Source: Flavobacterium sp. NG2
Lineage (GTDB): Bacteria; Bacteroidota; Bacteroidia; Flavobacteriales; Flavobacteriaceae
Direction: 5' to 3'
DNA length: 64,000 bases
NCBI RefSeq assembly: GCF_034119845.1
Contig: NZ_CP139420.1
Span: 3,536,001-3,600,000 of the forward strand
In this document: one piece after another, positions 19,613 to 64,000 of the stretch
How positions within the stretch are numbered: the stretch's first letter is position 1
How the letters are laid out: each line of letters opens with the position of its first letter
The notes under the pieces: model-generated
The model's database searches: none
Seen by the model: the letters and a program-made list of their open reading frames with translations, nothing else
What the model was told of the DNA's origin: nothing
Position numbers and translations under genes: made by a program

Positions 19613-21127
19613 TTATAAGGTTTGAAATATATTGCTTATATCTAATGGATCACCCATTTCTTTTTGGAGTTGTTGTAGGTTTTGGAATAGGGCTTTTACT
19701 TTGATTTTATTAGCTGAAAGACCTGCTATATCCTGCATTTCTTCGGGGTCTTTGTTCAAATCAAACAACAATACTTTCTGGATTTTAGGATAAACAATTA
19801 ACTTATAACCGTCTTTGCGAATCATTCGTTGAAGATCCAAATAGGCTCCGTAAATCCCTTTGTAATTGCTCTTAGTGGTTTTGCCTTTGGCCAAATCCAT
19901 CAAGCTATGGAACTCTACATATTTTGGTTTGGGCGCACCTGCTAAATCTAAAGCCGTTGCCATGGCATCTTGCAAATAGATATCGGCATCAACTTTTTTG
20001 TTTTTAGGAATATCAGGACCTACTATGACAAAGGGAGCACGGATGCTATGATCAAACAAACTTTGTTTCCCCATTAAACCGTGACGCCCCATGGCTAAAC
20101 CATGGTCAGCGGTAAAAATGATATAAGTATTGTCCATTTTACCTGATTTTTTCAAAGCGTCTAGAATCAAACCTATTTGCTCATCGGCATAGGTAATACT
20201 GGCATAATATTCTTGGGTATGTACTTTTACAGCGTATTTTGTTCTTGGGAAGGGTGCCAACGCCTCATCTCTTAAATTATTATTGTTACCCATATCTCTT
20301 CTAAAAGGATATTCTGGTAAAAAACTTTGGGGAACCGAAATTTTACGCAATGGATATTTTTCTTGATATTCTTTAGGCGCCTGTCTAGGGTCATGCGGAG
20401 CATTGAAGGCGAGATACATGAAGAAAGGATTTTCTTTCGTTTTTGCTTCATTGATATACGCAATAGCATCATCTTTTAAAACTACACTCCAATGTTTTCC
20501 TCCTTGCCAGAAACCACCTTTTGAAGTATTATAAGGCAACCAAGATTTGTCATCTTCACTCAACGGACGGTTGTAGCCATTTGGCATTGGCACCTTATCA
20601 AAAGAACCATTATTTTTTTTAATAGCTTCAAAAGTGGCAACCATTTTGCCGTGGTTCCAAGCATCAGCTGCCATACCACCTCGAATATTCTTTGTATGTT
20701 GAAATACCTTGTCCACAGCGGCCTCCACATGCCATTTCCCCGTAATATAGGTATCATAGCCCTGCTGTTCCATTAATTTCCCCCAAGTGAGTGCTGTTTT
20801 TTCTTTTTGAGCCCATTCGTCTGAAATGGCATTTGCTCTCCATAAAAAACGGCCTGAAATCAACATTGCACGTGAAGCTACACATACAGCTCCATTCCAA
20901 GCGCCCATATTATACGCATGAGTAAAGGTGGTTCCGTTTTTGACCAAAGCATCCATATTGGGTGTTTGAATTTCTTTATTCCCTAAAGCATGAATGGAAG
21001 TATAGGTTTGATCATCTGTAAAAATAAAAACGATATTGGGTTTTCTATTTTCGGCTTTTTGAGAAAACAAATGAACATTGTAGTTTGTAATTAATAAGAC
21101 TAAAAATATAATAGATTTAATTTTCAT
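19613..21127 (-). CDS. S1-family sulfatase with CVASR variant motif (504 aa)
   Basis: A secreted sulfatase whose formylglycine motif is C-V-A-S-R at 82-86, with alanine in place of the usual proline. Bacterial maturation systems are known to accept C-x-A-x-R, so activity is still expected. The signal peptide ends near residue 22. T-D-D-Q lies at 37-40, G-K-W-H-V near 138, a metal-ligand segment T-A-D-H-G near 315 and M-G-K-Q-S near 325, typical of the longer iduronate- or glucosamine-sulfatase-like branch. It is the first gene of the group that ends at the 8017-8045 terminator. Its start codon lies 22 nt after a leader hairpin described separately. Confidence 0.9.
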   Translation of the reverse strand: MKIKSIIFLVLLITNYNVHLFSQKAENRKPNIVFIFTDDQTYTSIHALGNKEIQTPNMDALVKNGTTFTHAYNMGAWNGAVCVASRAMLISGRFLWRANAISDEWAQKEKTALTWGKLMEQQGYDTYITGKWHVEAAVDKVFQHTKNIRGGMAADAWNHGKMVATFEAIKKNNGSFDKVPMPNGYNRPLSEDDKSWLPYNTSKGGFWQGGKHWSVVLKDDAIAYINEAKTKENPFFMYLAFNAPHDPRQAPKEYQEKYPLRKISVPQSFLPEYPFRRDMGNNNNLRDEALAPFPRTKYAVKVHTQEYYASITYADEQIGLILDALKKSGKMDNTYIIFTADHGLAMGRHGLMGKQSLFDHSIRAPFVIVGPDIPKNKKVDADIYLQDAMATALDLAGAPKPKYVEFHSLMDLAKGKTTKSNYKGIYGAYLDLQRMIRKDGYKLIVYPKIQKVLLFDLNKDPEEMQDIAGLSANKIKVKALFQNLQQLQKEMGDPLDISNIFQTL

Positions 21128-21670: not shown

Positions 21671-22729
21671 CTACTTCAAAGGAATCTGAACATTAAAAGA
21701 CTGTAAAACACCATTTTCATCAACAATATCCGAAGCACAAAGCAATACTTTTGGCACACCATTTTCAATATACAATTGCGGTCTTTCCAAATGTTCTACT
21801 TTTTGAAGATTCCCATTTTCCCAATTAATTTCTAATTTAGAAACCAATGCGTTTTTGGATAATTTCCAATCATAACCATCATTCGATTCAAATAAAACCA
21901 ATGCTTTCCCTTCTTTGGTAAAAGCACCATGCATATCTTTCAGAATAGCTCTGTATTTTCCTTTTTGGTACCAAATAAAAGGATCTTCTGCAGGAAAATC
22001 ATGGCCTTCTGCCAAGAAAACTGGTTTATCATACTTCTTGAATGGCCCTGATGGATTATCCGATGTGGCTACACAATGCACCACGGGACCACCCATAATA
22101 CCTGGCTTCTTTTTTCCAACAGCCTTATAAACCATCAAGTAAGTTCCGTCTGGTTTTTGAGTAATAGAAGGATTGCTAACCATCAATGCATCCATCGCTT
22201 GGGGATCTGGACTCACATCAATAATAGGGTTGTCTAATCGTTGCCAAGGCCCGTTTGGATTATCGGCAAAGGCTACACCAATGCGTTGGTTGTTTCGATG
22301 AATGGGGTTTAATTTATTCCCCATCGCTTTTCCATCCCCAGTATTTCCCATATAATACAAGTAGTATTTCCCATTGTATTTGTGAACTGTCGGATTGTGA
22401 GTACATAAGCCATCCCAATAGTTAGCCCCTCGAATGGGTAACGCTACATCTTTATGTTTCCACGGTCCCAACGGACTTTTGGAAACCGCATGGGCGATTT
22501 CAGAGTGCGTGACCCAAGCCCAACCTAACTCTTTATCCCATCTAGAATAATACATATGGTACAGTTTATCGTCACCTTTAACTATAGAAGCTCCCCAAAT
22601 GCTGATACTGTCATTCTCAAACTTAGCAGATAATGGTACTTTTTTGAATGTTATTTTAAAGTCATCGTCGACTTTAGCTGTTTTGCAACTTACAAATACT
22701 AATAGCAGTATTATTCCAATATATTTCAT
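21671..22729 (-). CDS. Five-bladed beta-propeller lipoprotein, GH43/GH117-like (352 aa), paralogue A
   Basis: A predicted lipoprotein (signal peptide, Cys15 in V-S-C) with the repeated strand pattern of five-bladed propeller glycosidases. Motifs shared with the proteins at 24188-25303 and 28213-29316 include W-G plus K-G-D-D near 45-55, Y-S-R-W, the block Y-W-D-G followed by T-H-N-P near 105-115, G-K-Y-Y-L-Y-Y-M, R-N-N-Q-R near 145, S-N-P-S and A-E-D-P. The acidic residues in these blocks could form the usual Asp/Asp/Glu site of the GH43/GH117 fold. I cannot place it in a named family. It is the last gene of the long minus-strand operon, 10 nt after a sulfatase. An exo-acting role on the same galactan is inference. 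Confidence 0.75.
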   Translation of the reverse strand: MKYIGIILLLVFVSCKTAKVDDDFKITFKKVPLSAKFENDSISIWGASIVKGDDKLYHMYYSRWDKELGWAWVTHSEIAHAVSKSPLGPWKHKDVALPIRGANYWDGLCTHNPTVHKYNGKYYLYYMGNTGDGKAMGNKLNPIHRNNQRIGVAFADNPNGPWQRLDNPIIDVSPDPQAMDALMVSNPSITQKPDGTYLMVYKAVGKKKPGIMGGPVVHCVATSDNPSGPFKKYDKPVFLAEGHDFPAEDPFIWYQKGKYRAILKDMHGAFTKEGKALVLFESNDGYDWKLSKNALVSKLEINWENGNLQKVEHLERPQLYIENGVPKVLLCASDIVDENGVLQSFNVQIPLK

Positions 22730-22739
22730 GTGAATTAAT

Positions 22740-24188
22740 TTATTTTTTCAACAATCGATTCTCCCAATCTTTCAGCAATTCTTCATCTGTAGTTTTGGCT
22801 GTAAAGGATTGATTATGTGTTTTTATTTGCTTTACATAATATTCTAAAGACTCTTTTTTTGCTTTTTTAATGGTCTTTTCATCCTCTGGAATCCTGTTTT
22901 TTTCAAAAGCCACCATTTGAGTCGAAATCTCTTGAAATAATTGCTTTTTTATTTTTTTATATTTTTTGGAATCGGCTAGGTTATTAAACTCCATTGGATC
23001 TTTTTTAAGATCAAACAATTCAATTACAGGTTTTGTTGCTGCCATAAACTGATTAAATGGTGCTGTCAATTCTCCTTTTTTATACAAAACATTATACAAA
23101 GAAAAGGCAGGATATTGGGCTTTTTTGTAACTACTCAATTGCATCCAAGGGCCGTCAGGAGTTCGATTCCAGATGAGTTTGTACCTGCCATTGCAAATAC
23201 TTCGCATATTTTCGACAGCATCACCAGCACGATCTCTAAAACCGTAAACGTATTTTATTTTCTGCGCTTTTTTGCCTAAAAAAATAGTTCCTTGCAAATT
23301 ACTTGGTGGTACAATTCCTGCTAATGCTAAAGAAGTTGCCGTTACATCAATCAAACTTACCAATTCTTCTTTCTCTATTTTTGGTTTAAAATGATTGGGG
23401 TAACGCACTATCAGAGGGACTCTCAAACCTCCTTCGTACAAAAACTGTTTATCGCGCAAATGCGGACGTCCATTGTCGCCAAAGAAAAATACAATCGTAT
23501 TATCGGCCAATCCTTCTTTTTCTAATCGGTCTAAAATAAGCCCTACTTGTTTGTCGCATTCTTGCACACTTTCTAAATATAAAGCCCAATCGGCTCGTAT
23601 AATGGGGTAATCAGGATAACATTCGGGTAAATGCACTTTATCAGCTGCCACTGGATTATCTTTGTCACGGACAAAATCGCGGTGGGGTTCATGAATTTGA
23701 ACTTGAGCAAAAAAGGGTTGGTCTTTGGTTCGTTGTTTCCAATCGGTTCCGTCAAAAAGGTTCTCTGCTAAAAAGTTAAAATCCTCTTTCCCACTCTTTG
23801 CCATATTATGTGAATTCCCATTCGTACAAAAATACCCTTGCGCTTTAAAATAAGTGGTTATGGGTGCAGTTCCTTGGGGTAACTGAGTCATATTTATGGT
23901 TCTATGGTCGTGACTGTTTACAGATGGCGGATACATACCTGTAATCATCGATGAGCGACTTGGGGAGCAAATGGGAGCATTGGCATAGGCTCTTTTATAC
24001 AAAATTCCTTGTTTGGCCAAGCGGTCAATATTAGGAGTTTTTACATCTGGATTGCCGTAGCAACCTAATTCTATCCCCAAATCATCCGCATTTATCCATA
24101 GAATATTGGGGCGGTTTTGTGCCAAACCATTGATTCCTAACATCAATAGCAATGCTTTTAAAAAAATGCTATTTATAAAATACTTCAT
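22740..24188 (-). CDS. S1-family sulfatase, CSPSR type (482 aa)
   Basis: A secreted sulfatase with a signal peptide to about residue 23. The usual D-D dipeptide sits in N-A-D-D-L (33-37), and Cys74 in C-S-P-S-R is the formylglycine site. The segment following the motif, and F-F-G-D-N-G-R near 240, resemble the heparan N-sulfatase-like branch of S1 rather than the arylsulfatase A-like branch. There is no G-K-W-H; the corresponding position reads G-N-S-H-N. Its start overlaps the stop of the upstream propeller gene by 1 nt (TAATG), implying translational coupling. It forms the second GH117-propeller-sulfatase unit of the operon. Substrate unknown. Confidence 0.9.
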   Translation of the reverse strand: MKYFINSIFLKALLLMLGINGLAQNRPNILWINADDLGIELGCYGNPDVKTPNIDRLAKQGILYKRAYANAPICSPSRSSMITGMYPPSVNSHDHRTINMTQLPQGTAPITTYFKAQGYFCTNGNSHNMAKSGKEDFNFLAENLFDGTDWKQRTKDQPFFAQVQIHEPHRDFVRDKDNPVAADKVHLPECYPDYPIIRADWALYLESVQECDKQVGLILDRLEKEGLADNTIVFFFGDNGRPHLRDKQFLYEGGLRVPLIVRYPNHFKPKIEKEELVSLIDVTATSLALAGIVPPSNLQGTIFLGKKAQKIKYVYGFRDRAGDAVENMRSICNGRYKLIWNRTPDGPWMQLSSYKKAQYPAFSLYNVLYKKGELTAPFNQFMAATKPVIELFDLKKDPMEFNNLADSKKYKKIKKQLFQEISTQMVAFEKNRIPEDEKTIKKAKKESLEYYVKQIKTHNQSFTAKTTDEELLKDWENRLLKK

Positions 24189-25303
24189 TATTTATCTTTT
24201 TTGATAATTAGGGGAATTTGGATATTAAATGAGTGTCTTACTTTATTCGCATCCAAAGTATCTGCAGCGCAAAGTAAGGCAATCGGTTTTCCGTTTTCGA
24301 TATATACTTGAGGACGTTCTAAATGAGTAAACTGCTGTACCCTTCCATTTTCCCATTGTACAATACGTTCCGAAATTTCGTGATGTTTAGCCGGTTGCCA
24401 GTCGATTCCGTTTTCAGAATCAAATTGCACCAGTGAGAATATCCGACTTTTTCCGGTATCTTTAATTCGTTTGACAATGGCTCTGTACCTACCGTCTTGA
24501 TACCAGATATAAGGATCCTCGGCTGGAAATCGTTCGCCTTCAAAATGAAAAACTAATTTTTCTGATTTAACAAAAGGGCCTGTTGGACTGTCGGATGTGG
24601 CAACAAGATGTACCACAGGGCCTCCACTGGGCAACGGAAATTTTTTACCCACTCCCTTGTAAATTAAAGTAAAACCGCCATCAGGTCGTTGACAAATAGA
24701 AGGATTAGAAGTCATCAAAGCATCTGGAGCATTATCATCACTGCTCACATCAATTAAGGGTTTGTCAAATCTTTTAAATGTGCCGTTTGGATCATTGGCA
24801 ACTGCTACACCAATCCGTTGGTTGTTACGATGTACCCAGTTCAATTCTTCTTTACCAGGAACTCCTAAAACTTTACCATCCCCTGTATTTCCCATATAAT
24901 ACAAATAATATTTGCCTTTGACTTTTATGATAGTGGGATTATGTGTCACTAAACCGTCCCAATAGTTTACTCCTCTTGCGGGAAGGGCTACATTTTTAAA
25001 TTTGAATGGTCCAAAAGGAGAAGTAGAAACCGCATGAGCAATCTCTGAATGTGAAACCCAAATCCAGCCTGGAGCTTCTGGCCATCGGGAATAAAACAAA
25101 TGATACAAATTATCATCTCCTTTGATTAATGAACCTCCCCAAACGCTCATTCCTTTTTCGCTAAAAACCGATTTTGAGGCTACTTTTCCAAATTCTATTT
25201 TGAAATCGGGACTGATAGTCGAACTGGTTTTGGTGTTTTTTTTACCACAAGAAATCAATACCATTGAAGTGATTACAAGTGACCATAAAGTTGATTTATT
25301 CAT
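24188..25303 (-). CDS. Five-bladed beta-propeller lipoprotein, GH43/GH117-like (371 aa), paralogue B
   Basis: Paralogue of the proteins at 21671-22729 and 28213-29316, with a lipoprotein signal (Cys19 in I-S-C-G). It shares the W-G/K-G-D-D opening, Y-S-R-W, Y-W-D-G/T-H-N-P, R-N-N-Q-R, T-S-N-P-S and A-E-D-P blocks in the same order, then L-E-R-P near the end. It appears closer to paralogue A than to the 28213 protein. Position in the operon: 58 nt after a GH117 gene, and overlapping a sulfatase start by 1 nt. A surface- or periplasm-anchored exo-glycosidase is the likeliest role; no enzymatic family can be named from sequence alone. Confidence 0.75.
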   Translation of the reverse strand: MNKSTLWSLVITSMVLISCGKKNTKTSSTISPDFKIEFGKVASKSVFSEKGMSVWGGSLIKGDDNLYHLFYSRWPEAPGWIWVSHSEIAHAVSTSPFGPFKFKNVALPARGVNYWDGLVTHNPTIIKVKGKYYLYYMGNTGDGKVLGVPGKEELNWVHRNNQRIGVAVANDPNGTFKRFDKPLIDVSSDDNAPDALMTSNPSICQRPDGGFTLIYKGVGKKFPLPSGGPVVHLVATSDSPTGPFVKSEKLVFHFEGERFPAEDPYIWYQDGRYRAIVKRIKDTGKSRIFSLVQFDSENGIDWQPAKHHEISERIVQWENGRVQQFTHLERPQVYIENGKPIALLCAADTLDANKVRHSFNIQIPLIIKKDK

Positions 25304-25361
25304 TCCTTTGTTTTATATTAATGATGGTATTTATTTCTTTAATAATCCAATATAAAAAAGA

Positions 25362-26639
25362 CTACTTTTTTTTCACGCCACGGCCTTCTGGATGCTCATA
25401 AATAGATTCTACACCTTGTGCAAAATAAACTTCGGGCCTATGCCAAACACCAGTGTCTTTGAAGGCGGGTTCATTATAGTCCAAACTTAAATCACAATCG
25501 AAACGAGCCATAATGGAATAACTTTTTTGAGGTGTTCCAGCATTAACAAAATGACACAATCCCCAAGTAAATCCTCTTCCATTACCTGAATTAGTAAAAG
25601 CGTCTGGACAAAAAGGAGCTGCCGCAGTAGGGGTTAATGACAATCCTGCTGCAATTTTGAAATTTACTCCATCCTCTGAATACTGCATCGTTTCACGTTC
25701 GTTACCATCTTTAATTGCCAAAGCAGCAACCCCTCCCTTAAATGGAAAATAGGTAGTTTCATGACCCGACTGCATAACAGGATTTAATGGATGTTTTTTG
25801 AAAGGACCTAAAGGATCTTCTCCAATTACTACTCCATGACCTACGGCATAATGTGACCTATCATTTGGCCATTTGTTATAAGCGGCTTTGTAATAAATAT
25901 AAATTTTACCCTTGTAAACTATAGGATGTGGATCATGTGTTGCGTTTTGATCCCACTCGCCTTCTTTTCCAAAAGGAATTACTTTATCACCTCCGTGTAT
26001 CCATGGTCCATCAGGCGAATCAGAGTAAGAAACGGAAACAGGACATAAATCACCTCTTAGTCCGCTAGGTTCATCAAAGGCTTGGTAGTATAAATAATAC
26101 TTCCCTTTCCAAACTAATATATCAGGAGTAGCTACAGAACGCCAGCCCGATTGTGGTTTCGCAGGTCTTGACACTGCAACTCCTTTTTCTTCCCAAGTAA
26201 TACCATCGGTACTTGTTGCATACCAAATATCACATAAGTCCCAGTCTGTTGATGGGATTACATCCGTAGCCTCAGCAGCACGATCCCAACCTATTGGAGG
26301 AACAGTTGTATGTCGTTTTGTGTACCAAATATAATACTTACCATTCACCAAGATAGGTCTTGAAGGGTCACGACGAGAAATGGTTCCGTCCCCGTTGTTG
26401 TAATCAAATCCTTTTAATCTGGTGTACTTAAATTGTGAAAACAATTCATTATCCTGAACCCTAGGGGTTGAATATTCAAACATACGCTCAGAGGATGTGC
26501 TTAACGAAATGTTAGGTTTCTCAGTAGGCATTTTGAATGGAAAAACACTAGTTGATTTCTTTTTGGAAGAAGTATCTAGTTTTGCAGAACATGACACTAA
26601 AACACTTCCTATTAATGCAATAATAATTTTACTTTTCAT
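25362..26639 (-). CDS. GH117 alpha-1,3-(3,6-anhydro)-L-galactosidase-like lipoprotein (425 aa)
   Basis: Family 117 enzymes release 3,6-anhydro-L-galactose from neoagaro-oligosaccharide ends. This copy has a lipoprotein signal (Cys17 in V-S-C-S) and a five-bladed propeller. The family signature R-R-D-P-S contains Asp91; H-D-P-H contains Asp236; S-G-H-E-T contains His293 and Glu294. The 58-residue spacing between the last two acids equals that reported for the characterised Zobellia AhgA (Asp252, Glu310), supporting the catalytic assignment. The helical N-terminal segment with R-V-Q-D-N-E-L, used for dimer domain swapping in the family, is present. It is one of three complete copies in this operon, and a fourth is cut by the right edge. 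Confidence 0.88.
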   Translation of the reverse strand: MKSKIIIALIGSVLVSCSAKLDTSSKKKSTSVFPFKMPTEKPNISLSTSSERMFEYSTPRVQDNELFSQFKYTRLKGFDYNNGDGTISRRDPSRPILVNGKYYIWYTKRHTTVPPIGWDRAAEATDVIPSTDWDLCDIWYATSTDGITWEEKGVAVSRPAKPQSGWRSVATPDILVWKGKYYLYYQAFDEPSGLRGDLCPVSVSYSDSPDGPWIHGGDKVIPFGKEGEWDQNATHDPHPIVYKGKIYIYYKAAYNKWPNDRSHYAVGHGVVIGEDPLGPFKKHPLNPVMQSGHETTYFPFKGGVAALAIKDGNERETMQYSEDGVNFKIAAGLSLTPTAAAPFCPDAFTNSGNGRGFTWGLCHFVNAGTPQKSYSIMARFDCDLSLDYNEPAFKDTGVWHRPEVYFAQGVESIYEHPEGRGVKKK

Positions 26640-26649
26640 TTCTTCATTT

Positions 26650-28209
26650 TTATTTTAATGATGGAACTTGATATTGTTTTCTCAGTTTAGCTAATTCTAT
26701 TTTCAGTAAAGCAATATCTTTAGCATACTCTGGACTGATGTATTGACTTTTCATTTCAGTAGGATCTTTTTTCAAATCATAAAATTCCCATTTATTCAAA
26801 TCATAGTAATGAATTAATTTATAACGATCTGTGCGCACTCCTTCGTGTTTAGCAATGTTGTGGCCGCCTGGAAAATCATAATATTGGTAATACAAACTCT
26901 TTCTCCAATTTTTAACTTTCTTTTGAGTCATCACGGGCAACAAACTTTTCCCTTGAATTTCTTTCGGAATTTGAACTCCTGCATAGTCTAAAATAGTGGG
27001 AGCATAATCGATGTTTTGAACCAAATCATTACTCACTTTTCCACCTTTTATTATTGATGGACAATAAGCAATCAATGGCGTTCTAAACGCTTCCTCATAC
27101 ATCAACCTTTTGTCATAAAATCCATGTTCGCCTAAAAACAATCCTTGGTCAGAAGTATAAATCACTAAGGTGTTTTCATCTAATTTATTTTCCTTCAAAT
27201 ACGCCATCAAACGTCCCACATTATCATCTACTGATTTTATGCAACCCAAATAATTTTGCATGATGCGTTGGTACTTCCATCGGATTAGGTCGTTTCCTTT
27301 TAAATTTGCTTTGGCGAAAGCCTCATTTTTATCTTTAAAAGCACTATCAAAAGTTTGTTTTTCTTCTTTTGAAAGTCTTCCATAAGCTCTTTGCCATAAT
27401 TTCCCGCCATAATCTTCGTAGATATTAGGAACATTTTTGGGTTCTGACCAAATTTCACAGTACCATCCCATAGGCATTTCGTCTAAAGTCATATCGATTT
27501 GCTTGGCTTCGCTAATGTGACCATCATGTGTATCAAATAAATTTTGAGGTTCTGGAATGGTAACATTATCAAAAGTGTTTAAATACTGTAAAGGCGGAAT
27601 CCAATTGGCATGAGGTGCTTTATTCCCAACAATCATCATAAAAGGTTGTTTTTTGTCCCTTCCTTTTTCAAGCCAATTGATTGCTTTATCAGTAATCACA
27701 TCAGTAACATAGCCTTTATGAATTTCAGTCCCTTTGGCTGTTCTAAAATCCGAATTATAATAATCTCCTTGATCTATCAATACATCCCAAAATGAAAAGC
27801 CAACTGGCTCACTTTTTAAATGCCATTTGCCAATAATTGCCGTTTGATAGCCAGCATTTTGCAAGATACTCGCTATCGTAGGTTGGCTGCCATCAAAGCT
27901 TTCTTTGAGTGTAAGTACTCCATTCTTATGACTGTGTTTACCTGTCAAAATTGTGGCTCGTGAGGGTGCACAAATAGAATTCCCAACATAACTACGGTCA
28001 AAACGAATCCCTTCATTGGCTAATTTGTCTATATTAGGGGTTGGCGCAATAGTGGCTAATCTATCATTATACGCACTAATAGCTTGATAGGCATGATCGT
28101 CTGAAAGTATTAGAATGATATTTTTGGGCGTTTTATTTTGTGCCAAACTCAAAAGGCTAAAAGCACAAAAAGCAACTAAAAAGGAATATTTATAAAGAAC
28201 TTTAATCAT
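26650..28209 (-). CDS. S1-family sulfatase, CAPSR type, possibly S1_11-like (519 aa)
   Basis: A secreted sulfatase with a signal peptide to about residue 23. L-S-D-D-H lies at 35-39, Cys80 in C-A-P-S-R is the formylglycine site, and G-K-W-H-L lies near 125. The later segments S-D-Q-G near 355, Y-D-K-R-L-M and the C-terminal Y-Y-D-L are in the style of GlcNAc-6-O-sulfatase/porphyran S1_11 enzymes. In that subfamily, porphyran sulfatases remove the 6-sulfate of L-galactose; this assignment is inference from overall pattern. It lies 3 nt after a propeller gene and 10 nt before a GH117 gene, within the first GH117-propeller-sulfatase unit. Confidence 0.9.
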   Translation of the reverse strand: MIKVLYKYSFLVAFCAFSLLSLAQNKTPKNIILILSDDHAYQAISAYNDRLATIAPTPNIDKLANEGIRFDRSYVGNSICAPSRATILTGKHSHKNGVLTLKESFDGSQPTIASILQNAGYQTAIIGKWHLKSEPVGFSFWDVLIDQGDYYNSDFRTAKGTEIHKGYVTDVITDKAINWLEKGRDKKQPFMMIVGNKAPHANWIPPLQYLNTFDNVTIPEPQNLFDTHDGHISEAKQIDMTLDEMPMGWYCEIWSEPKNVPNIYEDYGGKLWQRAYGRLSKEEKQTFDSAFKDKNEAFAKANLKGNDLIRWKYQRIMQNYLGCIKSVDDNVGRLMAYLKENKLDENTLVIYTSDQGLFLGEHGFYDKRLMYEEAFRTPLIAYCPSIIKGGKVSNDLVQNIDYAPTILDYAGVQIPKEIQGKSLLPVMTQKKVKNWRKSLYYQYYDFPGGHNIAKHEGVRTDRYKLIHYYDLNKWEFYDLKKDPTEMKSQYISPEYAKDIALLKIELAKLRKQYQVPSLK

Positions 28210-28212
28210 ATT

Positions 28213-29316
28213 TTATTTATCTAATAAAGGAATCACTAATGAATGTGAAATTTCACTGTCCTTTGGTAAAATGGCAATTATCAAGGCTTTTGGTTTGCCG
28301 TTTTCCATGTATAATTTGGGCATATCGGCTGTACGTTCTGTTTTGGTAATGGTGCCATCTGTCCATTTAATTTCGCCTGCTTTTAGTAATAAAAAGTTTT
28401 TAGAAAGCTTCCAATTAAACCCGAAAGAATCAGCCTCAAATAATAAAGTTGATCCACGAGGATTATCGCTCCACGAACCATCAGAATCCTTGGCTATACA
28501 ATAATATTTCCCATTTTGAGCCCATTCTACATGATCATCAATCGCAAAATTTGCCGTAGGATGGATTATAAAAGGTTTTCTTGTATCAACAAACGGACCT
28601 TCAGGAGCATCTGCTAATGCGGTCACATGTATCACTTTTCCGTTTTTGAATTTCTCATTCGGCTCTACATATTTGTATGCCAATAAAAGTTTACCATCAG
28701 GCCGAATTGATATCGTTGGTGTTGAAGTCATCATTTGATTGCCTTTAACATCGATTAAAGGCTTTTCAAAGCGTGTCCATTCTCCATTCAAGTCATTAGT
28801 AACAGCGAGGCCTACTCGCTGGTTATTACGATTTACCCACCATTCTGGGTCACTATATTTCGGCATTACTGTGTCTGCTGTTTTGTCCCAGTAACCACTA
28901 CCATGGTTGCCCATGTGGTACAAATAGTACTTACCCTTGTATTCTAACACATGAGGATTATGGGTACAATCACCATCCCAATATTTGTTTCCTCTTGGAG
29001 GAAGTACCAAGTTTTTAAATACATAAGGACCTGTGAGCTTATCCGAAACGGCATGTGCAATTTCAGAATGTGTCACCCATCCCAAATGTCCTCTCGATTT
29101 TAGCCAACGGGAATAAATAGCGTGGTATTTGCCATCTTTCCCTTTTAAAATATTGGTTCCCCAAACATTATAATCCTTTTCTTGAATAATATTGGCTTTA
29201 TCAAATTTTTCAGGAAGGGTGATAGGGCTATCATTTTGAACGGATTGAGCCGTACAAATTCCTAATAGGAAACTAGCAAAAACTACGAAATAAAACTTTA
29301 GATTACTTTTTTTCAT
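28213..29316 (-). CDS. Five-bladed beta-propeller protein, GH43/GH117-like (367 aa), paralogue C
   Basis: The third and most divergent member of the propeller trio. It has a signal peptide ending near residue 23 (C-T-A-Q) but no clear lipobox, unlike the other two. The shared blocks W-G plus K-G-K-D, Y-S-R-W, Y-W-D-G/T-H-N-P, R-N-N-Q-R and G-K-Y-Y-L-Y are intact, while S-N-P-S becomes S-T-P-T and A-E-D-P becomes I-D-D-H near 255. These changes fall where active-site or substrate-binding residues are expected, so its specificity probably differs. The start overlaps the end of the upstream GH117 gene by 14 nt, indicating tight coupling. Function is not assignable beyond a GH43/GH117-like fold. 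Confidence 0.72.
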   Translation of the reverse strand: MKKSNLKFYFVVFASFLLGICTAQSVQNDSPITLPEKFDKANIIQEKDYNVWGTNILKGKDGKYHAIYSRWLKSRGHLGWVTHSEIAHAVSDKLTGPYVFKNLVLPPRGNKYWDGDCTHNPHVLEYKGKYYLYHMGNHGSGYWDKTADTVMPKYSDPEWWVNRNNQRVGLAVTNDLNGEWTRFEKPLIDVKGNQMMTSTPTISIRPDGKLLLAYKYVEPNEKFKNGKVIHVTALADAPEGPFVDTRKPFIIHPTANFAIDDHVEWAQNGKYYCIAKDSDGSWSDNPRGSTLLFEADSFGFNWKLSKNFLLLKAGEIKWTDGTITKTERTADMPKLYMENGKPKALIIAILPKDSEISHSLVIPLLDK

Positions 29317-30583
29317 TTTTGATTCGTTCTAATTGTTTTTTTGAAAGTCCTTGTAAAAAATAAACATCAGGCTTTAAAAACATATGGGTATGTTTTAGTT
29401 CAGGATCGTTTAGATCCAAACTCAAATCACAGTCAAAGCGTGCCATAATCGAATAACTTTTAGGAGCTGTTCCTGCATTGGTAAAATGACACATGCCCCA
29501 AGTTACCCCTCTACCATATTTGGTATTGGTAAAAGCATCTGGTGTATAAGCGCCCGCAGCGGTAGGCGTCAGCGTAACATTGGCCGCCACCTTAAAATTC
29601 ACTCCATCAGCTGCATACTGCATGGATTCACGTTCGTTTCCATCTTTAATGGCCAAAGCTGCAATTCCTTCTTTAAAAGGAAAATAAGTCGTTTCATGTC
29701 CTGAATTTAATACTGGATTCAAAGGGTGTTTTACAAAAGGTCCTAAGGGATCTTCGGCTATAGCCAAACCATGTGCTACTGCATACTTTTCTCTGTTGTC
29801 TGGCCATTTATTAAAGGCGGCTTTATAGTATAAATAAATTTTCCCGTCTCTTACAATCAAATGAGGGTCTTGACTTTGATCTTGATCCCATTCGCCTTTT
29901 TTACCAAAAGGGAAAATTGGTTTTCCTAAATTAGTCCAAGGTCCATTAGGTGAATCAGCATAGGAAACCGAAATAGGACACCAATCTCCTTTTAACCCAC
30001 TAGGTTCATTAAAAGCTTGGTAGTACAAATAATATTTCCCTTTCCATACCAATATATCGGGTGTGGCTACAGAACGCCAACCCAATTGTCCTTTTTCGGG
30101 TCTTTTAACGGCTACCCCTTGTTCTTCCCAACTAAAACCGTCTTTACTTGTAGCGTACCAAAGGTCACATAAATCCCAATCGGTAGAAGGAATTTCATCA
30201 GTAGCTTCCATAGCGCGATGTGAACCAATGGGTGGTACTTTTGTATGTCTTTTGGTGTACCAAATATAATAAGTATCGTTAACCAAAATAGGTCTTGAAG
30301 GGTCTCTTCTGGAAATCGTTCCGTCTCCATTATTATAATCAAAACCTTTTAATTCTGTGTATTTAAACATCGAATACAATTCGTTATCCTGAACTCTTGG
30401 AGCAGGATAATCAAACATCCTATCAGTAGCCGCACTCATTGGGTACTTCGGTTTTTCGGTTGGCATTTTATGCGGGAAAACTTGAGCTGATTTTGTATTC
30501 TTTTTTGTTTGAGCTTCAACAAACAAAGACAAGCTTAGGGATAAACCTAATAAAGCAATTGTTGCAATTTTATTAGTATTCAT
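29303..30583 (-). CDS. GH117 alpha-1,3-(3,6-anhydro)-L-galactosidase-like protein (426 aa)
   Basis: A GH117 propeller enzyme with an ordinary signal peptide (ends near residue 24, V-E-A-Q) rather than a lipobox. Asp94 in R-R-D-P-S, Asp239 in Q-D-P-H and His296-Glu297 in G-H-E-T form the expected active site, with the same 58-residue spacing as the copy at 25362-26639. It is very similar to that copy along its whole length; differences concentrate in the N-terminus and in the loop before residue 239 (S-Q-D-P versus T-H-D-P). The C-terminal tail K-Q-L-E-R-I-K is shared with the copies at 32776 and 63867. It is 7 nt downstream of a GH3 gene. Confidence 0.88.
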   Translation of the reverse strand: MNTNKIATIALLGLSLSLSLFVEAQTKKNTKSAQVFPHKMPTEKPKYPMSAATDRMFDYPAPRVQDNELYSMFKYTELKGFDYNNGDGTISRRDPSRPILVNDTYYIWYTKRHTKVPPIGSHRAMEATDEIPSTDWDLCDLWYATSKDGFSWEEQGVAVKRPEKGQLGWRSVATPDILVWKGKYYLYYQAFNEPSGLKGDWCPISVSYADSPNGPWTNLGKPIFPFGKKGEWDQDQSQDPHLIVRDGKIYLYYKAAFNKWPDNREKYAVAHGLAIAEDPLGPFVKHPLNPVLNSGHETTYFPFKEGIAALAIKDGNERESMQYAADGVNFKVAANVTLTPTAAGAYTPDAFTNTKYGRGVTWGMCHFTNAGTAPKSYSIMARFDCDLSLDLNDPELKHTHMFLKPDVYFLQGLSKKQLERIKNEKK

Positions 30584-30590
30584 AAATAAT

Positions 30591-32774
30591 TTATTTTAAT
30601 TCAATTATTGTTTCTTGAGGCAAAGCAGCTCCTAGTTTAGTGCTTAATGCTCCTGGCGAAGCATTTCCCACCACGATTTTATAGTTTCCTTTTCGCCACA
30701 CTTTTTTGCCATTGGTATCAATAACTTTTAAATCATCGGCTGTAATTGAAAATGATACTGTTTTTTTATCTGATTTATTTAATGCTATTCTTTCAAATGC
30801 TTTTAAACTTTTTAACGGAATTCCACCAGAAGTATCTTCGGGACAAATGTATAATTGCACCACTTCGTCAATATCAAAATCTCCCACATTGGCAACGTCC
30901 ACCTTTACAGTAAGGCCTTCGTTTTTCCTTAGTTTAGTCGAATTCAATTTTAAATTACTAAGTTCCGTTTTAGAATAAGTAAGTCCAAAACCAAAAGGAT
31001 ACATCGGTTCTTCGGTCATGTATTTATAGGTTCTTCCTTTCATCGAATAATCCTCAAAAGGAGGTAATTGTTTCAGATTTTTAGGAAAAGTCAAAGGCAA
31101 ATGACCCGAAGGGGAAACGTTTCCAAACAACACATCAGCCACTGCATTCCCACCTTGCTCACCTGGATACCAAATTTGAACAATAGCATCACATTTATCT
31201 TCGATTCCTTCCAATGAAACAGGGCTTCCGCTAGCGATAACCAAAACTAAAGGTCCTTTTTTATTTTCGGCCAATTTTTTAACGTAATTCACTTGATTTT
31301 CTGGTAAACTCAAATCTTTACGATCTCCTTTGTGGTCAGAAGCGATAGCATCTACCCCTTCACCTTCTCTATCCGCAGTAATACCAACCACACAAATCGT
31401 AATGTCCGATTCTTTAGCTACATTGGGTGCCCAATTTTTTGGATTTAAATTATCATGAAAAGGCAAAGCACCACTGCGATAATTCAACGAAGTTCCTGGC
31501 GAAACCACATCAGCGATTCCTGCCAAAATTGTTACAATTCCTGGACTAATGCCATAATAACTTCCCATCAACATATCAGACGAATTGGCAAAAGGTCCTG
31601 TTACATACGGTATTTTGACATTCTTAGAAATGGGTAAAGTGTTGTTTGTATTCTTAAGCAATACAATTGATTTTTGCGCTGCTTCTTTGGCTAGTGCAAT
31701 AGTTTCTTGTGAATGAATTTCATTGATTCCAAGCTTAGCATAAGGATTGTTATCAGGTTTGTCAAACATTCCTAATCTAAAACGTGTTTTTAAGAGTTGT
31801 TTGGTTCTTTCTCTAATTGTTTCTTTTGAAACCAATCCTTGTTTCAAAGCAGCATTCATTTCTCCAAAATTACCACCACAAAAAAGATTAGTTCCTGCAT
31901 TAAAGGCTACAGCTGCTGCTTCGGCTTCTGTCTTAACAAATTTGTGTGTATCATAAATACATTTTACTGCACCACAATCGGTTACCACATAACCATCAAA
32001 TTTCCACTGAGTGCGTAAAATATCCGTCAAGAATTCTGGATTGGCAGCCATCGGTTTGCCATATACAGCATTGTGAGCTGGCATCACTCCTTCTACTTTG
32101 GCTTCTTTTACCAAGGCTTCAAAAGCAGGCATATAGGTTTCCCATAAATCTTGTTTGGTTGGAACGGCATTATACACCAATCGCAAACTTTCTGGACCTG
32201 AATGCACGGCAAAATGTTTGGCACAAGCAGCTGATTTTAAAAATTTAGGATCCTCACCTTGTAAACCTTTTACAAAAGCAACACCAATTTTAGACATTAA
32301 ATACGGATCTTCTCCATAAGTTTCTTGTCCGCGACCCCAGCGAGGATCTCTAAATATATTGACATTGGGTGTCCAAAAAGTTAATCCTGCAAATTTGCTA
32401 TGATTGCCCATTTGTTGCGAAATATTATACTTCGCTCTTGCTTCGGTTGAAATTGCCGAAGCTACTCTAAATGCTAAATCTGGATCAAAAGTGGCTCCGA
32501 TACCAATTCCTTGCGGAAAAATAGTCGCTTTTCCGTTTCTAGCAACACCATGTAAAGCTTCATTCCACCAATCATAATCGGGAATATTCAACCTTGGTAT
32601 GGCTGGTGCATTGTTACGCAATTGTCCCATTTGTTCCTCAACAGTCATTTGTGAAACCAAAATTTCGACCCTTTCATCAATTGACAATGAAGCATCTTGG
32701 AATTTAAAATTGACTTCTTGAGCCATCGAAACAAATGGCATTAAAAAAAGTATTATTTTAGAATTTATTTTCAT
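30591..32774 (-). CDS. GH3 beta-glycosidase (727 aa)
   Basis: A secreted GH3 enzyme closely related to the one at 3504-5708. A signal peptide covers residues 1-18. D-P-R-W-G-R lies near 143-148, K-H-F-A-V-H-S near 186-192, and the nucleophile is Asp266 in V-V-T-D-C-G-A. The second domain has the D-R-E-G-E-G segment, and a C-terminal fibronectin-III-like domain follows. Compared with its paralogue it differs near the nucleophile (K-C-I-Y versus S-G-V-Y) and in one substrate loop (P-A-H-N versus A-A-Y-N, near 232-235). The gene sits 1 nt after one GH117 and 7 nt before another, which suggests it removes the sugar exposed once the anhydro unit is gone. Confidence 0.92.
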   Translation of the reverse strand: MKINSKIILFLMPFVSMAQEVNFKFQDASLSIDERVEILVSQMTVEEQMGQLRNNAPAIPRLNIPDYDWWNEALHGVARNGKATIFPQGIGIGATFDPDLAFRVASAISTEARAKYNISQQMGNHSKFAGLTFWTPNVNIFRDPRWGRGQETYGEDPYLMSKIGVAFVKGLQGEDPKFLKSAACAKHFAVHSGPESLRLVYNAVPTKQDLWETYMPAFEALVKEAKVEGVMPAHNAVYGKPMAANPEFLTDILRTQWKFDGYVVTDCGAVKCIYDTHKFVKTEAEAAAVAFNAGTNLFCGGNFGEMNAALKQGLVSKETIRERTKQLLKTRFRLGMFDKPDNNPYAKLGINEIHSQETIALAKEAAQKSIVLLKNTNNTLPISKNVKIPYVTGPFANSSDMLMGSYYGISPGIVTILAGIADVVSPGTSLNYRSGALPFHDNLNPKNWAPNVAKESDITICVVGITADREGEGVDAIASDHKGDRKDLSLPENQVNYVKKLAENKKGPLVLVIASGSPVSLEGIEDKCDAIVQIWYPGEQGGNAVADVLFGNVSPSGHLPLTFPKNLKQLPPFEDYSMKGRTYKYMTEEPMYPFGFGLTYSKTELSNLKLNSTKLRKNEGLTVKVDVANVGDFDIDEVVQLYICPEDTSGGIPLKSLKAFERIALNKSDKKTVSFSITADDLKVIDTNGKKVWRKGNYKIVVGNASPGALSTKLGAALPQETIIELK

Positions 32775-32775
32775 C

Positions 32776-34089
32776 CTATTTTGCCTCTTTCTTGATTCTT
32801 TCCAACTGTTTTCCTGAAAGCCCTTGTGAAAAGTACACTTCTGGTTTTAAAAATAAATGCGTTTTTTTCAATTCAGGATCATTGACATCCAAACTCAAAT
32901 CACAATCAAAACGGGCTAGAATACTATACCCTTTATTTGGTGTTCCTGCATTTACAAAATGGCTCAATCCCCAACTAATCCCTCTTCCGTTACCGTTGCT
33001 GGTAAATGCATCTGGTACATAAGCACCTGCAGCAGCAGGAAAAAGTGACGAAACTGAAGCTATATTAAAGTTAATACCATCTTTAGCATATTGAATGGTG
33101 TTGTTTTCGTTTCCGTTGCTAGTAATTAAGGCAGCTATACCTTCTTTAAAAGGAAATAAAGCCGTTTCATGTCCCGAATTAAACAAAGGATTCAACGGAT
33201 GTTTAGTAAAAGGTCCCAACGGATTATCGGCCATTGCCAAGCCGTTGCCTACCAAATAATCTGGTCGGTCACCATAAGCCGCTTTGAAGTACAAATAGAT
33301 TTTACCTTTATAGACTAACGGATACGGGTCGTGAATCGAAAATTGATCCCAAGTTCCTGCTGGGCCATTTTCTACAATTACTTTATTGGCGGGTGTCCAT
33401 GGACCATCAGGTGAATCCGCATAAGAAGCGGCTACTGGACAATGATCTCCTTTTTTCCCACTAGCTTCCATAAAACCTTGGTAATACAAATAATATTTCC
33501 CTTTCCATTTTAAGATATCCGGAGTAGCCACAGACCGCCAACCCACTTCTGGCATCGGTGGTCTTTTGACCGCTACACCCTGCTCTTCCCAAGTCAATCC
33601 GTCTTTGCTTGTAGCGTACCATATTTCACATAAATCCCAATCGGTGGACGGAATAACATCTGTACTTTCACTGGCTCTATGCGCACCAATAGGGGGTACT
33701 TTAGTATCTCGTTTGGTGTACCAAACATAGTATTTCCCATTTTCGAAAATAATTTTCGAAGGGTCACGTCGGGAAACGGTTCCATCACCATTGCGGTAAT
33801 CAAACCCCTTTAATTGTGTATATTTAAAACTCGAAAAGAGTTCGTTATCCTCAGGTCTTGGGGTTAAATAATTGTCATACAAACGCTCCATAGCCGCGCT
33901 CAAAGGTCGGTTAGGTTTGGTTTGTGGGATATCCCATGGATAACCGCCAATTTCTTTTTGTTTCGAACTTCCACAAGAAGTGGCTAAAATTAAGGCCGCT
34001 AAACCGATAGAAAATGTGGTGGTAATTCGGTTTTTATTTAAAATATCTAATTTCATCGTTTCGTGTGTGTTTATTTTATGGTTGCTCAA
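32776..34089 (-). CDS. GH117 alpha-1,3-(3,6-anhydro)-L-galactosidase-like lipoprotein (437 aa)
   Basis: The most divergent of the three complete GH117 copies. Asp109 in R-R-D-P-S, Asp254 in H-D-P-Y and His307-Glu308 in G-H-E-T are present, but the last two acids are 54 rather than 58 apart because of a shortened blade loop (A-Y-G-D-R-P-D). The lipobox cysteine is Cys39 of the longest frame (T-S-C-G). A better start is probably the ATG at 34056, which gives a normal-length lipoprotein signal; the extra 11 N-terminal residues would be unusual. It follows a GH2 gene by 32 or 65 nt depending on the start and precedes a GH3 by 1 nt. Confidence 0.87.
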   Translation of the reverse strand: MSNHKINTHETMKLDILNKNRITTTFSIGLAALILATSCGSSKQKEIGGYPWDIPQTKPNRPLSAAMERLYDNYLTPRPEDNELFSSFKYTQLKGFDYRNGDGTVSRRDPSKIIFENGKYYVWYTKRDTKVPPIGAHRASESTDVIPSTDWDLCEIWYATSKDGLTWEEQGVAVKRPPMPEVGWRSVATPDILKWKGKYYLYYQGFMEASGKKGDHCPVAASYADSPDGPWTPANKVIVENGPAGTWDQFSIHDPYPLVYKGKIYLYFKAAYGDRPDYLVGNGLAMADNPLGPFTKHPLNPLFNSGHETALFPFKEGIAALITSNGNENNTIQYAKDGINFNIASVSSLFPAAAGAYVPDAFTSNGNGRGISWGLSHFVNAGTPNKGYSILARFDCDLSLDVNDPELKKTHLFLKPEVYFSQGLSGKQLERIKKEAK

Positions 34090-41464: not shown

Positions 41465-43744
41465 TTATTGGCAAAAAATTTCAAAAACAGCTACAGGCAC
41501 ATGTGGATTACTTTGCTCCAATTCGATGGTAAATCCTTTAGTTTTTATTTTTGAATTGAAAGTCCAAGTATTAATTGCTTGACAATTATTCTTTTTTTCG
41601 AATAAAACAGTTCCACTCCTGTCTTTGATGGTGTAATTCTGTACACAAAACGGAACTACTTCTTCGGGATGTCCCATTAAGGTCGATTCCATGGGGTGAT
41701 CATAATCAGGGTCTAAGAATAGTTTTATTTCAGAAAGTGCCACTTCGGTTTCCCATTCCACTTTTAGCGTTGGTTTGGTATCAGTAAGGTCGGCCAACCA
41801 AGCATTGGCACTGCCATAAGGACGTACAAAACCATTAGTTAGATTTTCTGTTCCAAAACACGCAATGGCTGGTTCGATTTGCATGGCAATATTTTGTCCT
41901 TTAGGTCTTCTAAACGGAATCCAAAATTCAAAAGCATCAATACCGATGTTGTCAGGAGGTGTTTGTTTTCCGTTGTTGTTTACCGCTTTATTTTGTCCGT
42001 TAAAGACCGATAGAACACCTGTATATCGTTTTGTACTGCTTTGAATACTCAGTTTGTCATTTGCCAAAAAAGTAACAAAAGCATACTGATTTTCAGTCGT
42101 GGCTGTTTTAAATTCAAAAGCTACTTCTTGTTCGCCTGGACTTATTTTTATTTCTATCGTTTCTAAAATAATGTCGGGCGTGTAATTTTTGGCTTTGGCC
42201 GAAGTACGCAATTGTACTGTTAGTGACGTAGCTTCTTGGGCTTTTACTTTTACTTTAAAACCATAGTTTTGATGGGCTTTGAAAGGCAATAATTGGGCAA
42301 CTGCCACTTCTAGTGAGGTATATTCACCATCAAAATCTATTTGGCTTAATTTTAAAGTAGAGGAAGCTTGGATGGTTGCTTGGTTCAATAAATTTTGAGT
42401 TTTATCAATGGCTATCCCTGGAATGCTTTGCCCATTGATACTCAGAGTTTGTTGCAATTCTTTTAGATTATTGGATTTCAATAATTCGGCTGGTTTCAAA
42501 TTGTTTGTCACACATTGTGCCGCTCCGTATCCAACAGCCTGTGCGGCATGAGCACAAGTTGCCATCACACGGGTCGAACCAAAAGCAACGTGAGTAGCGC
42601 TGATGATACGTCCGGCAAGAAATAAATTCTCTATATTTTGACTTATCATGGTACTTAACGGAATCTGATATACTCCTTTGGAATGGTATTGGGTACAACC
42701 CGGACGACTGTCATAAACCCCATCCGATGGATGTAAATCGACTGCCCAGCCTCCAAAAGACACCGCATCCTCAAACGTATTTTGTTCGATTAGATCTTGT
42801 TGTTTAATCATATAATGCCCTTCAAAACGGCGGCTTTCACGCTTACCAGGAATTGTTCCTACCCATTCCAAGGTTAAATTGGCAGCATCTGGAAATTCGC
42901 CCGAGTTTTTGATGTAATCCCAAACCCCATAAACTACTTTCCATAGTTCCCATTTGATGTCTTCGGATTCGTGAATGGTATCTTTTCGCCCGCCATATTC
43001 CAACCACCACAAACGACAACCCGAATCTTTATCACTCAAGCTTTTATATCGTGGTATTTCGGTAATGTCTTTTAAGGCAAATTCAGGAGCGACATATTTT
43101 ACTGGTGCTCCCGTATCTTTACTGTAAAAATAAATGGTATGCCCTAGTAATTCTCCGTATGATAGGTCTGGAGCAAATTTCTCTCCAAATTCTTCCACCG
43201 TTTCAGCACCCATTCTAAACGCAGCTCCTGCTTGAAAACCTACGATTCCATCTCCCGAAGCATCACAAAACAAGTTCGATTTGAGAATATAGGTCGTTGA
43301 GTTTTGGCTACAAAAGGCAGTAACTTGACTTATATTTTTGGTATCCGCTTTCTCTACCTCATAAACTGCGGTGTTTAATAACAGCGTTATATTTTTCTCA
43401 TTCGAAACTTTTTCTAACAAAACCGTATCAAAAATAAGCGCATTTCCTTCTTTATTTCGATACAAATTTTCGACTAAAATCTCATCGATGATTCCGCCTT
43501 CACGAGCCCAACGGTTGTTGTTCCCCATATGTGAGGTTGCGCCCAAAGTCCACAAACGAACTTCACTCGAAGCGTTACCACCTAAAACAGGTCTATCCTG
43601 AACTAGGGTTACAGTTACCCCTTCGCGAGCCGCAGCAATGGCCGCACAAACTCCCGCTAATCCTCCGCCAACAACGACTAAATCAGATTGAATTGTAGTA
43701 ATTTTATTGGATCTTACTTTTGAACTAAAGCTTTCTACTTGCAT
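41465..43744 (-). CDS. FAD-dependent oxidoreductase, cytoplasmic (759 aa)
   Basis: The N-terminus has no signal peptide and begins a Rossmann fold with V-V-V-G-G-G-L-A-G at 23-31, followed by G-G-N-A-S-S near 55-60, matching the FAD_oxidored (PF12831) group. D-A-S-G-D-G near 163 and the C-A-H-A-A-Q-A-V-G-Y-G block near 402-412 are further FAD-contact regions. After about residue 430 comes a ~330-residue beta-rich C-terminal part ending in a possible jelly roll. It lies between the sugar symporter (26 nt) and a GH2 (10 nt). As the only clearly cytoplasmic enzyme in this operon, it may oxidise the imported monosaccharide or open a glycosidic bond by an oxidative route. Both roles are inference. 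Confidence 0.85.
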   Translation of the reverse strand: MQVESFSSKVRSNKITTIQSDLVVVGGGLAGVCAAIAAAREGVTVTLVQDRPVLGGNASSEVRLWTLGATSHMGNNNRWAREGGIIDEILVENLYRNKEGNALIFDTVLLEKVSNEKNITLLLNTAVYEVEKADTKNISQVTAFCSQNSTTYILKSNLFCDASGDGIVGFQAGAAFRMGAETVEEFGEKFAPDLSYGELLGHTIYFYSKDTGAPVKYVAPEFALKDITEIPRYKSLSDKDSGCRLWWLEYGGRKDTIHESEDIKWELWKVVYGVWDYIKNSGEFPDAANLTLEWVGTIPGKRESRRFEGHYMIKQQDLIEQNTFEDAVSFGGWAVDLHPSDGVYDSRPGCTQYHSKGVYQIPLSTMISQNIENLFLAGRIISATHVAFGSTRVMATCAHAAQAVGYGAAQCVTNNLKPAELLKSNNLKELQQTLSINGQSIPGIAIDKTQNLLNQATIQASSTLKLSQIDFDGEYTSLEVAVAQLLPFKAHQNYGFKVKVKAQEATSLTVQLRTSAKAKNYTPDIILETIEIKISPGEQEVAFEFKTATTENQYAFVTFLANDKLSIQSSTKRYTGVLSVFNGQNKAVNNNGKQTPPDNIGIDAFEFWIPFRRPKGQNIAMQIEPAIACFGTENLTNGFVRPYGSANAWLADLTDTKPTLKVEWETEVALSEIKLFLDPDYDHPMESTLMGHPEEVVPFCVQNYTIKDRSGTVLFEKKNNCQAINTWTFNSKIKTKGFTIELEQSNPHVPVAVFEIFCQ

Positions 43745-63866: not shown

Positions 63867-64000
63867 TTATTTTTTTAATTTTTCAGTTTGTTGTTTGATG
63901 CGTTCCAATTGTTTAGCACTCAATTTGTGCGTGTAGTGAAACTCAGGACTGTATTGGTAATAATGGTCTTTCATTCCTTGGTCATCCACTTCAAGACTTA
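63867..64000 (-). CDS. GH117-like protein, C-terminal fragment (5' part outside window)
   Basis: The minus strand from the right edge to a TAA at 63867-63869 encodes 43 residues that match the C-terminus of the GH117 copies in this window: S-L-E-V-D-D aligns with S-L-D-V-N-D, a Y-S-P-E-F-H segment with the K-P-E-V-Y-F region, and K-Q-L-E-R-I-K is identical. It is therefore very likely a fourth GH117 gene. It ends 29 nt before the GH2 start and probably leads the GH2-GH86-GH29 operon or belongs to a longer one. Only the tail is visible, so active-site residues cannot be checked. Confidence 0.75.
   Translation of the reverse strand, partial: SLEVDDQGMKDHYYQYSPEFHYTHKLSAKQLERIKQQTEKLKK

Follow-up and report, generated by a model that had tools for sequence, protein, structure and literature searches.

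The genome of Flavobacterium sp. NG2 is a single contig of 4.15 Mb, and the stretch analyzed here (64,000 nucleotides, positions 3536001-3600000; the window) carries on its minus strand a run of genes in which the order GH117 glycosidase, propeller protein, sulfatase occurs twice in succession. Unit 1 consists of GH117A (29303-30583), the propeller PR3 (28213-29316), and the sulfatase S_A (26650-28209), and unit 2 of GH117B (25362-26639), the propeller PR2 (24188-25303), and the sulfatase S_B (22740-24188), followed by a third, lone propeller, PR1 (21671-22729), which within the window is closest to PR2. To an earlier sequence-only reading, this order, at 30583-26650 and 26639-22740, looked as if a cassette had been duplicated and its sulfatase exchanged. 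All of the open reading frames (ORFs) lie exactly there, the lone propeller is present (with a sulfatase that had not been listed, S_C, 543 bases beyond it), and sequence comparison confirms that the GH117s and the propellers are paralogous, though with uneven identities, and that the two sulfatases sit on different branches, one S1_11-like and the other S1_8-like. The duplication itself does not survive: local tandem copying of the cassette is rejected by trees, by approximately unbiased (AU) tests, and by the uneven identities, whereas the idea of sulfatase exchange is supported in part, by sulfatase neighbors that vary between genomes.

Divergence differs sharply from one position of the units to the next. 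GH117A and GH117B are 71-73% identical (a third GH117, GH117C, is 62% identical to each), the identity of PR3 is 38% with PR2 and 40% with PR1, PR2 and PR1 share 57%, and S_A and S_B are 30% identical over 147-148 amino acids only. In DNA, the units match each other along the GH117 gene (74.7% identity in 1017 columns); outside this gene, only short pieces match. The repeated order alone is weak evidence of duplication because two GH117s, three propellers, and two sulfatases in a row can be arranged in 210 class orders, 10 of which give some contiguous repeated triplet (16 if the spare propeller may lie between); the particular order GH117, propeller, sulfatase arises twice contiguously in 2 of them, or in 3 with the spare between.

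A propeller tree was built by a quick method from 100 sequences, i.e., 97 propellers (from the window and from loci, numbered here with the prefix L, supplied by a search that returned 317 relatives) and three GH117s. The deepest split among the window propellers separates PR2 from PR3, each with relatives elsewhere: the PR3 clade has a Shimodaira-Hasegawa approximate likelihood ratio (SH-aLRT) support of 100, PR2 belongs to a clade of 24 sequences (SH-aLRT 99) from Bacteroidota, Verrucomicrobiota, Lentisphaerota, and Pseudomonadota (including a Gayadomonas plasmid), and PR1 lies among another set of sequences. In the GH117 trees, GH117A clusters with Lutibacter, Draconibacterium, and Seonamhaeicola genes (support 92/95), and the relatives that group with GH117B come from Lutibacter, Tamlana, and Rhodopirellula (100/97). 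In AU tests, each comparing two trees only, a constraint that unites the window PR2 and PR3 lowers the log-likelihood by 372 units (p 0.0002), one that unites PR1 and PR2 by 125 (p 3e-11), and one that unites the Flavobacterium GH117A and GH117B, with their counterparts in Flavobacterium sp. UMI-01, by 74 (p 0.0017). The paralogues of each unit thus group with their own relatives in other genera and phyla, an outcome that the sequence-only reading had itself named as refuting, and given the trees and the AU tests the window members are older than the lineage.

Tandem copying of one GH117-propeller-sulfatase cassette, with later replacement of one sulfatase, would explain why the order is repeated exactly, why GH117A and GH117B resemble each other more than either resembles any other gene of the window, why their clades lie within one larger clade, and why the type of sulfatase beside PR3 changes between genomes. 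It is nevertheless very improbable in the face of the AU results and of a propeller pair so much more diverged than the GH117 pair, all the more as A-type and B-type GH117s coexist in Lutibacter (loci L002 and L005 each carry both) and PR2-S_B pairs occur with no preceding GH117 in G388, a genome of the same genus, and in other phyla. The data do fit an older duplication confined to the GH117 gene, since the A and B clades nest in one larger clade.

Probable traces of recombination at the scale of genes are visible in the comparison with Flavobacterium sp. UMI-01 (locus L001), whose PR2 is 97% identical to that of the window and whose order is GH117C, GH117A, PR3 fused to GH117, S_A, GH117B, PR2, S_B, an extra sulfatase, PR1, without the symmetry of the window. 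DNA identity between the two genomes is 94-100% over S_A (past its first bases) and GH117B, 80-99% over PR2 and S_B, and 87-97% along the greater part of GH117A and at the beginning of PR3. Inside PR3, over about 28990-28240, it falls abruptly to 73-83%. Flanked in this way by the GH117A side at 87-97% and S_A at 94-100%, the tract 28240-28990 is likely a recombination tract, and PR3 is a mosaic gene. At the end of PR3, UMI-01 has 1183 extra bases that encode a GH117 domain, absent from the unfused PR3 of the window, and it lacks at the corresponding place the GH3 gene of 30591-32774; its extra sulfatase, before PR1, is 43% identical to the window sulfatase at 8069-9907. The GH117 domain could have been lost through unequal crossing-over between PR3 copies in tandem: the gene is clearly a mosaic, but no sequence stands out as its donor.

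PR3 with a C-terminal GH117 domain is found in five loci, as proteins of 765-792 amino acids: UMI-01 (L001:4805-7099), two of Lutibacter (L004:6111-8408 and L005:4818-7115), a Seonamhaeicola metagenome-assembled genome (MAG; L009:17046-19421), and Draconibacterium (L018:12580-14901). The five fused GH117 domains form one clade (support 100/100), and in all five the catalytic motifs RRDPS and SGHE are intact, as is the Asp 18 residues further on. A structure model of the fusion protein has a mean predicted local distance difference test score (pLDDT) of 76.7 and a predicted template modeling score (pTM) of 0.55, and we draw no conclusion from it.

Elsewhere, the same genes are combined in other ways. 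The order GH117, propeller, sulfatase occurs, among the stretches examined, in UMI-01 (twice), in Labilibacter (L008), and in the Seonamhaeicola MAG. The Lutibacter loci L004 and L005 read PR1, PR3-GH117, S_A, (GH117A in L005), PR2, GH2, GH117C-like, GH117B, S_B; Labilibacter has GH117C-like, PR2, S_B, PR1; and G388 has GH2, PR2, S_B, GH117C-like, and farther on PR1, with no PR3 or S_A within the 40 kb examined. With S_B-type defined by at least 40% identity, and in counts that cover loci other than the window and may miss pairs split by a spurious ORF, PR2 adjoins an S_B-type sulfatase in 9 of 25 PR2-type genes (L001, L006, L008, L012, L013, L018, L020, L022, and L095), and PR3 directly precedes an S_A-type sulfatase in 4 of 12 PR3-type genes (L001, L002, L004, and L005). 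The sulfatase that follows GH117A-PR3 is S_A-type in the window and in UMI-01 and S_B-type in the Seonamhaeicola MAG. Among 398 genomes of the genus, a propeller matches at 1e-60 in 8, and at 1e-180 or better in the source genome, G025, and G388; the trait is sparse in the genus and was probably acquired. Among 397 genomes sampled from the same family, a GH117 match is present in all 16 with strong propeller matches, compared with 39 of the 397 overall.

The propellers constitute a broadly distributed, GH117-like family as judged by sequence similarity. All 97 propeller sequences separate from the three GH117s in the tree (support 100), i.e., they do not arise from within GH117. Compared by structure and profile with the five-bladed propeller glycosidases GH117, BT_0996, and GH43, the propellers show 18-21% identity to GH117 structures, and where the profiles are aligned, the catalytic Asp of GH117 faces a gap in the propellers, while the part with His and Glu falls outside the aligned region. 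The Pfam GH43 model (curated cut-off 32.2 bits) scores 54.1 bits for PR1 and 35.7 bits for PR2, over short stretches; PR3 matches no Pfam model, and neither PR2 nor PR3 matches an NCBIfam model at E 0.001. PR2, for which a structure model has a mean pLDDT of 95.1, differs from PR3 at a dozen conserved positions of the alignment. Asp116, His121, and Asp263 of PR2 are invariant across all sequences and are candidate catalytic residues, and at two further candidate positions, Glu262 and Glu329 of PR2, PR3 has Asp. We found no characterized member of the family in the open-access literature searched, which is not proof that none exists, and the word "propeller" is absent from PMC5943477 and PMC12549532. 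Among ten proteins of the wider family that were scanned for fusions, GH16 is found in L038 and L056, rhamnosidase domains in L044, the flavin adenine dinucleotide (FAD) oxidoreductase domain PF12831 in L051:3751-7062 and L069:3514-6642, and the 3-keto-disaccharide hydrolase domain PF06439 in L012:1926-4001 and L054:9353-11026. A PF12831 gene also lies in the window cluster, at 41465-43744, and together with the PF12831 and PF06439 fusions makes a link to oxidative glycan breakdown possible.

The two sulfatases of the units, both of the formylglycine type, differ in their nearest solved relatives. S_A carries the CxPxR motif as CAPSR, and its best structure scores (491-466 bits) are to 9s03, 5g2v (named N-acetylglucosamine (GlcNAc)-6-sulfatase, and which we take to be BT4656), and the mucin-desulfating 7p24. 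BT4656 and BpS1_11 belong to the S1_11 subfamily, which also includes exo-L-galactose-6-sulfatases of porphyran pathways (PMC10154612, PMC12316285; papers are cited here from excerpts of their text). Leaving the subfamily of the top match 9s03 aside, the nearest solved relatives of S_A are thus S1_11, and it resembles a 6-O-sulfatase of this group, for which it is a candidate. S_B (motif CSPSR) scores 324, 215, and 177 bits against S1_8A, S1_8B, and S1_8C, which are galactose 2-O-sulfohydrolases of a lambda-carrageenan cascade (PMC12549532), and resembles S1_8, a mostly galactose 2-O-specific subfamily, as a candidate 2-O-sulfatase. The third sulfatase, S_C (19613-21127, minus strand), is also S1-type and is loosely related to both (26% identity to S_A; 31% over 175 amino acids to S_B); its motif is CVASR, compared with CxPxR in S_A and S_B. 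A repeat of three units, the third being represented in part by PR1-S_C, is not favored given this loose relationship, and in G388 S_C lies ~7.5 kb from PR1, adjoining GH2 and S_D.

The complete minus-strand run is GH117C, GH3, GH117A, PR3, S_A, GH117B, PR2, S_B, PR1, the 543-base gap, S_C, GH2, S_D, with GH117C at 32776-34089 and the GH3 gene, at 30591-32774, between it and GH117A; a second GH3 gene, at 3504-5708, is 70% identical to the latter. Among the 34 ORFs of at least 150 amino acids in the window are a GH86 that carries porphyranase domains, two distant GH16s (which match solved enzymes only weakly, with best scores of 43 and 51 bits), GH29, and several GH2 and GH3 genes. The others include six sulfatases of S1 type and genes for an FAD oxidoreductase, an SSF transporter, and a LacI regulator. 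A fourth GH117 crosses the window edge, with its 3' end at about 63888-64000 and its start beyond the window end, and the genome has eight GH117s in total; four more lie within ~51 kb (1965526-2016955), ~1.5 Mb away from the window. The TonB plug domain has 48 matches genome-wide and none in the window, the nearest being at 3507271 and 3632619. With three genome-wide matches to the FGE-sulfatase family, maturation of the sulfatases would be possible.

On balance, we consider it likely that the stretch belongs to a large cluster for the degradation of red-algal (agaran/porphyran-type) polymers and encodes exo-enzymes that form a modular set acting on mixed sulfated agaran, built by recruitment and recombination. 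Agaran is preferred as the polymer because of the GH117s and the GH86 porphyranase domains, with carrageenan as a possible but less favored alternative. Old paralogues would have diverged or entered separately and then been joined by gene-scale recombination, the neat triplets being a snapshot rather than cassette copies. The roles and substrates that we infer are those of exo-enzymes trimming oligosaccharides from the non-reducing end: the GH117s would take off 3,6-anhydro-L-galactose, S_A a 6-O-sulfate, perhaps from L-galactose-6-sulfate, S_B a 2-O-sulfate, probably from galactose, and the GH2 enzymes the intervening galactose, with S_A and S_B unblocking different chain ends for the glycosidases. 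The propellers, in what is the weakest step, might remove another, L-type residue that alternates with or replaces anhydro-L-galactose, PR2 and PR3 perhaps recognizing different versions of it. Given the two types of sulfatase and the differences in conserved residues between PR2 and PR3, it is plausible that the units serve differently sulfated motifs, as the sequence-only reading had supposed. More tentatively, and as a possibility short of probable, the propellers could be an undescribed family of exo-glycosidases that is sister to GH117 and lacks its catalytic base, the PR3-GH117 fusions then being two-headed enzymes that strip terminal L-galactose (after S1_11 desulfation) or 3,6-anhydro-L-galactose from a hybrid porphyran/agarose chain.

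The two units might instead do similar chemistry at different sites, with GH117B and PR2 as lipoproteins and GH117A and PR3 as soluble periplasmic proteins. A simple scan finds a lipobox in GH117B, GH117C, PR2, and PR1 of the window and none in GH117A and PR3, and across the alignments in 2 of 12 PR3 and 19 of 26 PR2 sequences. We regard this explanation as unlikely: a lipobox is also found in 3 of 6 GH117A-type sequences (Lutibacter L002 and L005 and Draconibacterium L018), the scan is crude and hangs on automatic start codons, and localization cannot account for the differences between PR2 and PR3 at conserved residues. A similarly low probability attaches to PR2/S_B and PR3/S_A being unrelated scavenging modules for different polymers, co-located by chance and sharing no pathway with GH117. 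PR2-S_B pairs with no GH117 in the stretch examined (L006, L012, and L020) are what such modules would look like, but neither the fusion of PR3 to GH117 in five loci nor the GH117 match in every strong-propeller genome of the family sample would be expected of them.

Several observations weigh against an exo-enzyme set for mixed sulfated agaran. We know of no activity for any propeller of the family, so that its substrate role is a guess from neighbors, and some relatives of the propellers come (according to record titles) from bacteria of groundwater and the rumen, where red-algal galactan is unlikely. Pairing of propellers and sulfatases is loose: in L009 and L018 the sulfatase beside PR3 is S_B-type, and 16 of the 25 PR2-type genes fail the S_B criterion. 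A GH117 match is present in only 9 of the 34 family genomes with weaker propeller matches, and in all of these samples the genomes and loci are related, so that counts are not independent, and cut-offs were picked after the lists were seen. S_A scores lower against the exo-L-galactose-6-sulfatases 7lha and 7snj (329 and 322 bits) than against the GlcNAc-6-sulfatase-type entries, and S1_8 also holds an N-sulfoglucosamine sulfatase (PMC10154612). Finally, the GH117 paralogue BuGH117A showed no activity on agarose (PMC5849685), so the substrates of GH117A and GH117B are not certain either.

Of most interest are the propellers as a family and the proteins in which one of them is fused to GH117. 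Accompanied by GH117 in all 16 strong-match genomes and fused to it in five loci, the family is likely a missing step in mixed agaran breakdown, and the PR3-GH117 fusion offers a compact object for a direct test of the missing activity. More generally, enzymes of a sulfated-galactan cluster come and go one gene at a time, even when the two Flavobacterium genomes compared are close, and tidy repeated modules can therefore arise without duplication.

By their strong similarity to solved enzymes, GH117A, GH117B, and GH117C are members of GH117, a family whose enzymes liberate anhydro-L-galactose (PMC11574756, PMC9728383). Against 4u6b and 4u6d, the structures titled Zobellia Zg3597 and Zg3615, GH117A scores 693 and 543 bits and GH117B 746 and 518 bits, while GH117C, with 584 and 637 bits, is nearest to 4u6d; no statement of the activity of Zg3597 was found in the open-access literature searched. 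Like the known GH117s (Zg3597, Zg3615, BpGH117, and Ahg943; PMC11574756, PMC9728383, PMC6950322), all three keep the equivalents of Asp90, His302, and Glu303 (Asp base, His acid, and Glu, with roles as in PMC11574756), matched by motif rather than by direct alignment to BpGH117. At the position of Asp320 of the BpGH117 His/Asp dyad, GH117A and GH117B have Asp, and GH117C, unlike BpGH117, has Asn, as in 3 of 27 GH117 sequences (GH117C, L010:3373-4659, and L016:17634-18845).

Two known pathways resemble the cluster as a whole. The porphyran exo-pathway of Bacteroides plebeius combines the BpS1_11 sulfatase, the alpha-L-galactosidase BpGH29, and BpGH2C (PMC12316285), and the window likewise has an S1_11-type sulfatase, GH29, GH2, and GH86 with porphyranase domains; it differs in lacking a TonB plug domain and in its GH117s and propellers, as the word GH117 is absent from the B. 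plebeius paper and its excerpted text names no such propellers. In the lambda-carrageenan cascade of Pseudoalteromonas, to which the nearest solved relatives of S_B belong, GH110A is paired with S1_8B, and GH110B with S1_8B and S1_15B (PMC12549532). The polymer is different, and GH110 stands in place of GH117 and propeller, but the cascade provides a precedent for paralogous exo-glycosidases matched to different sulfatases.

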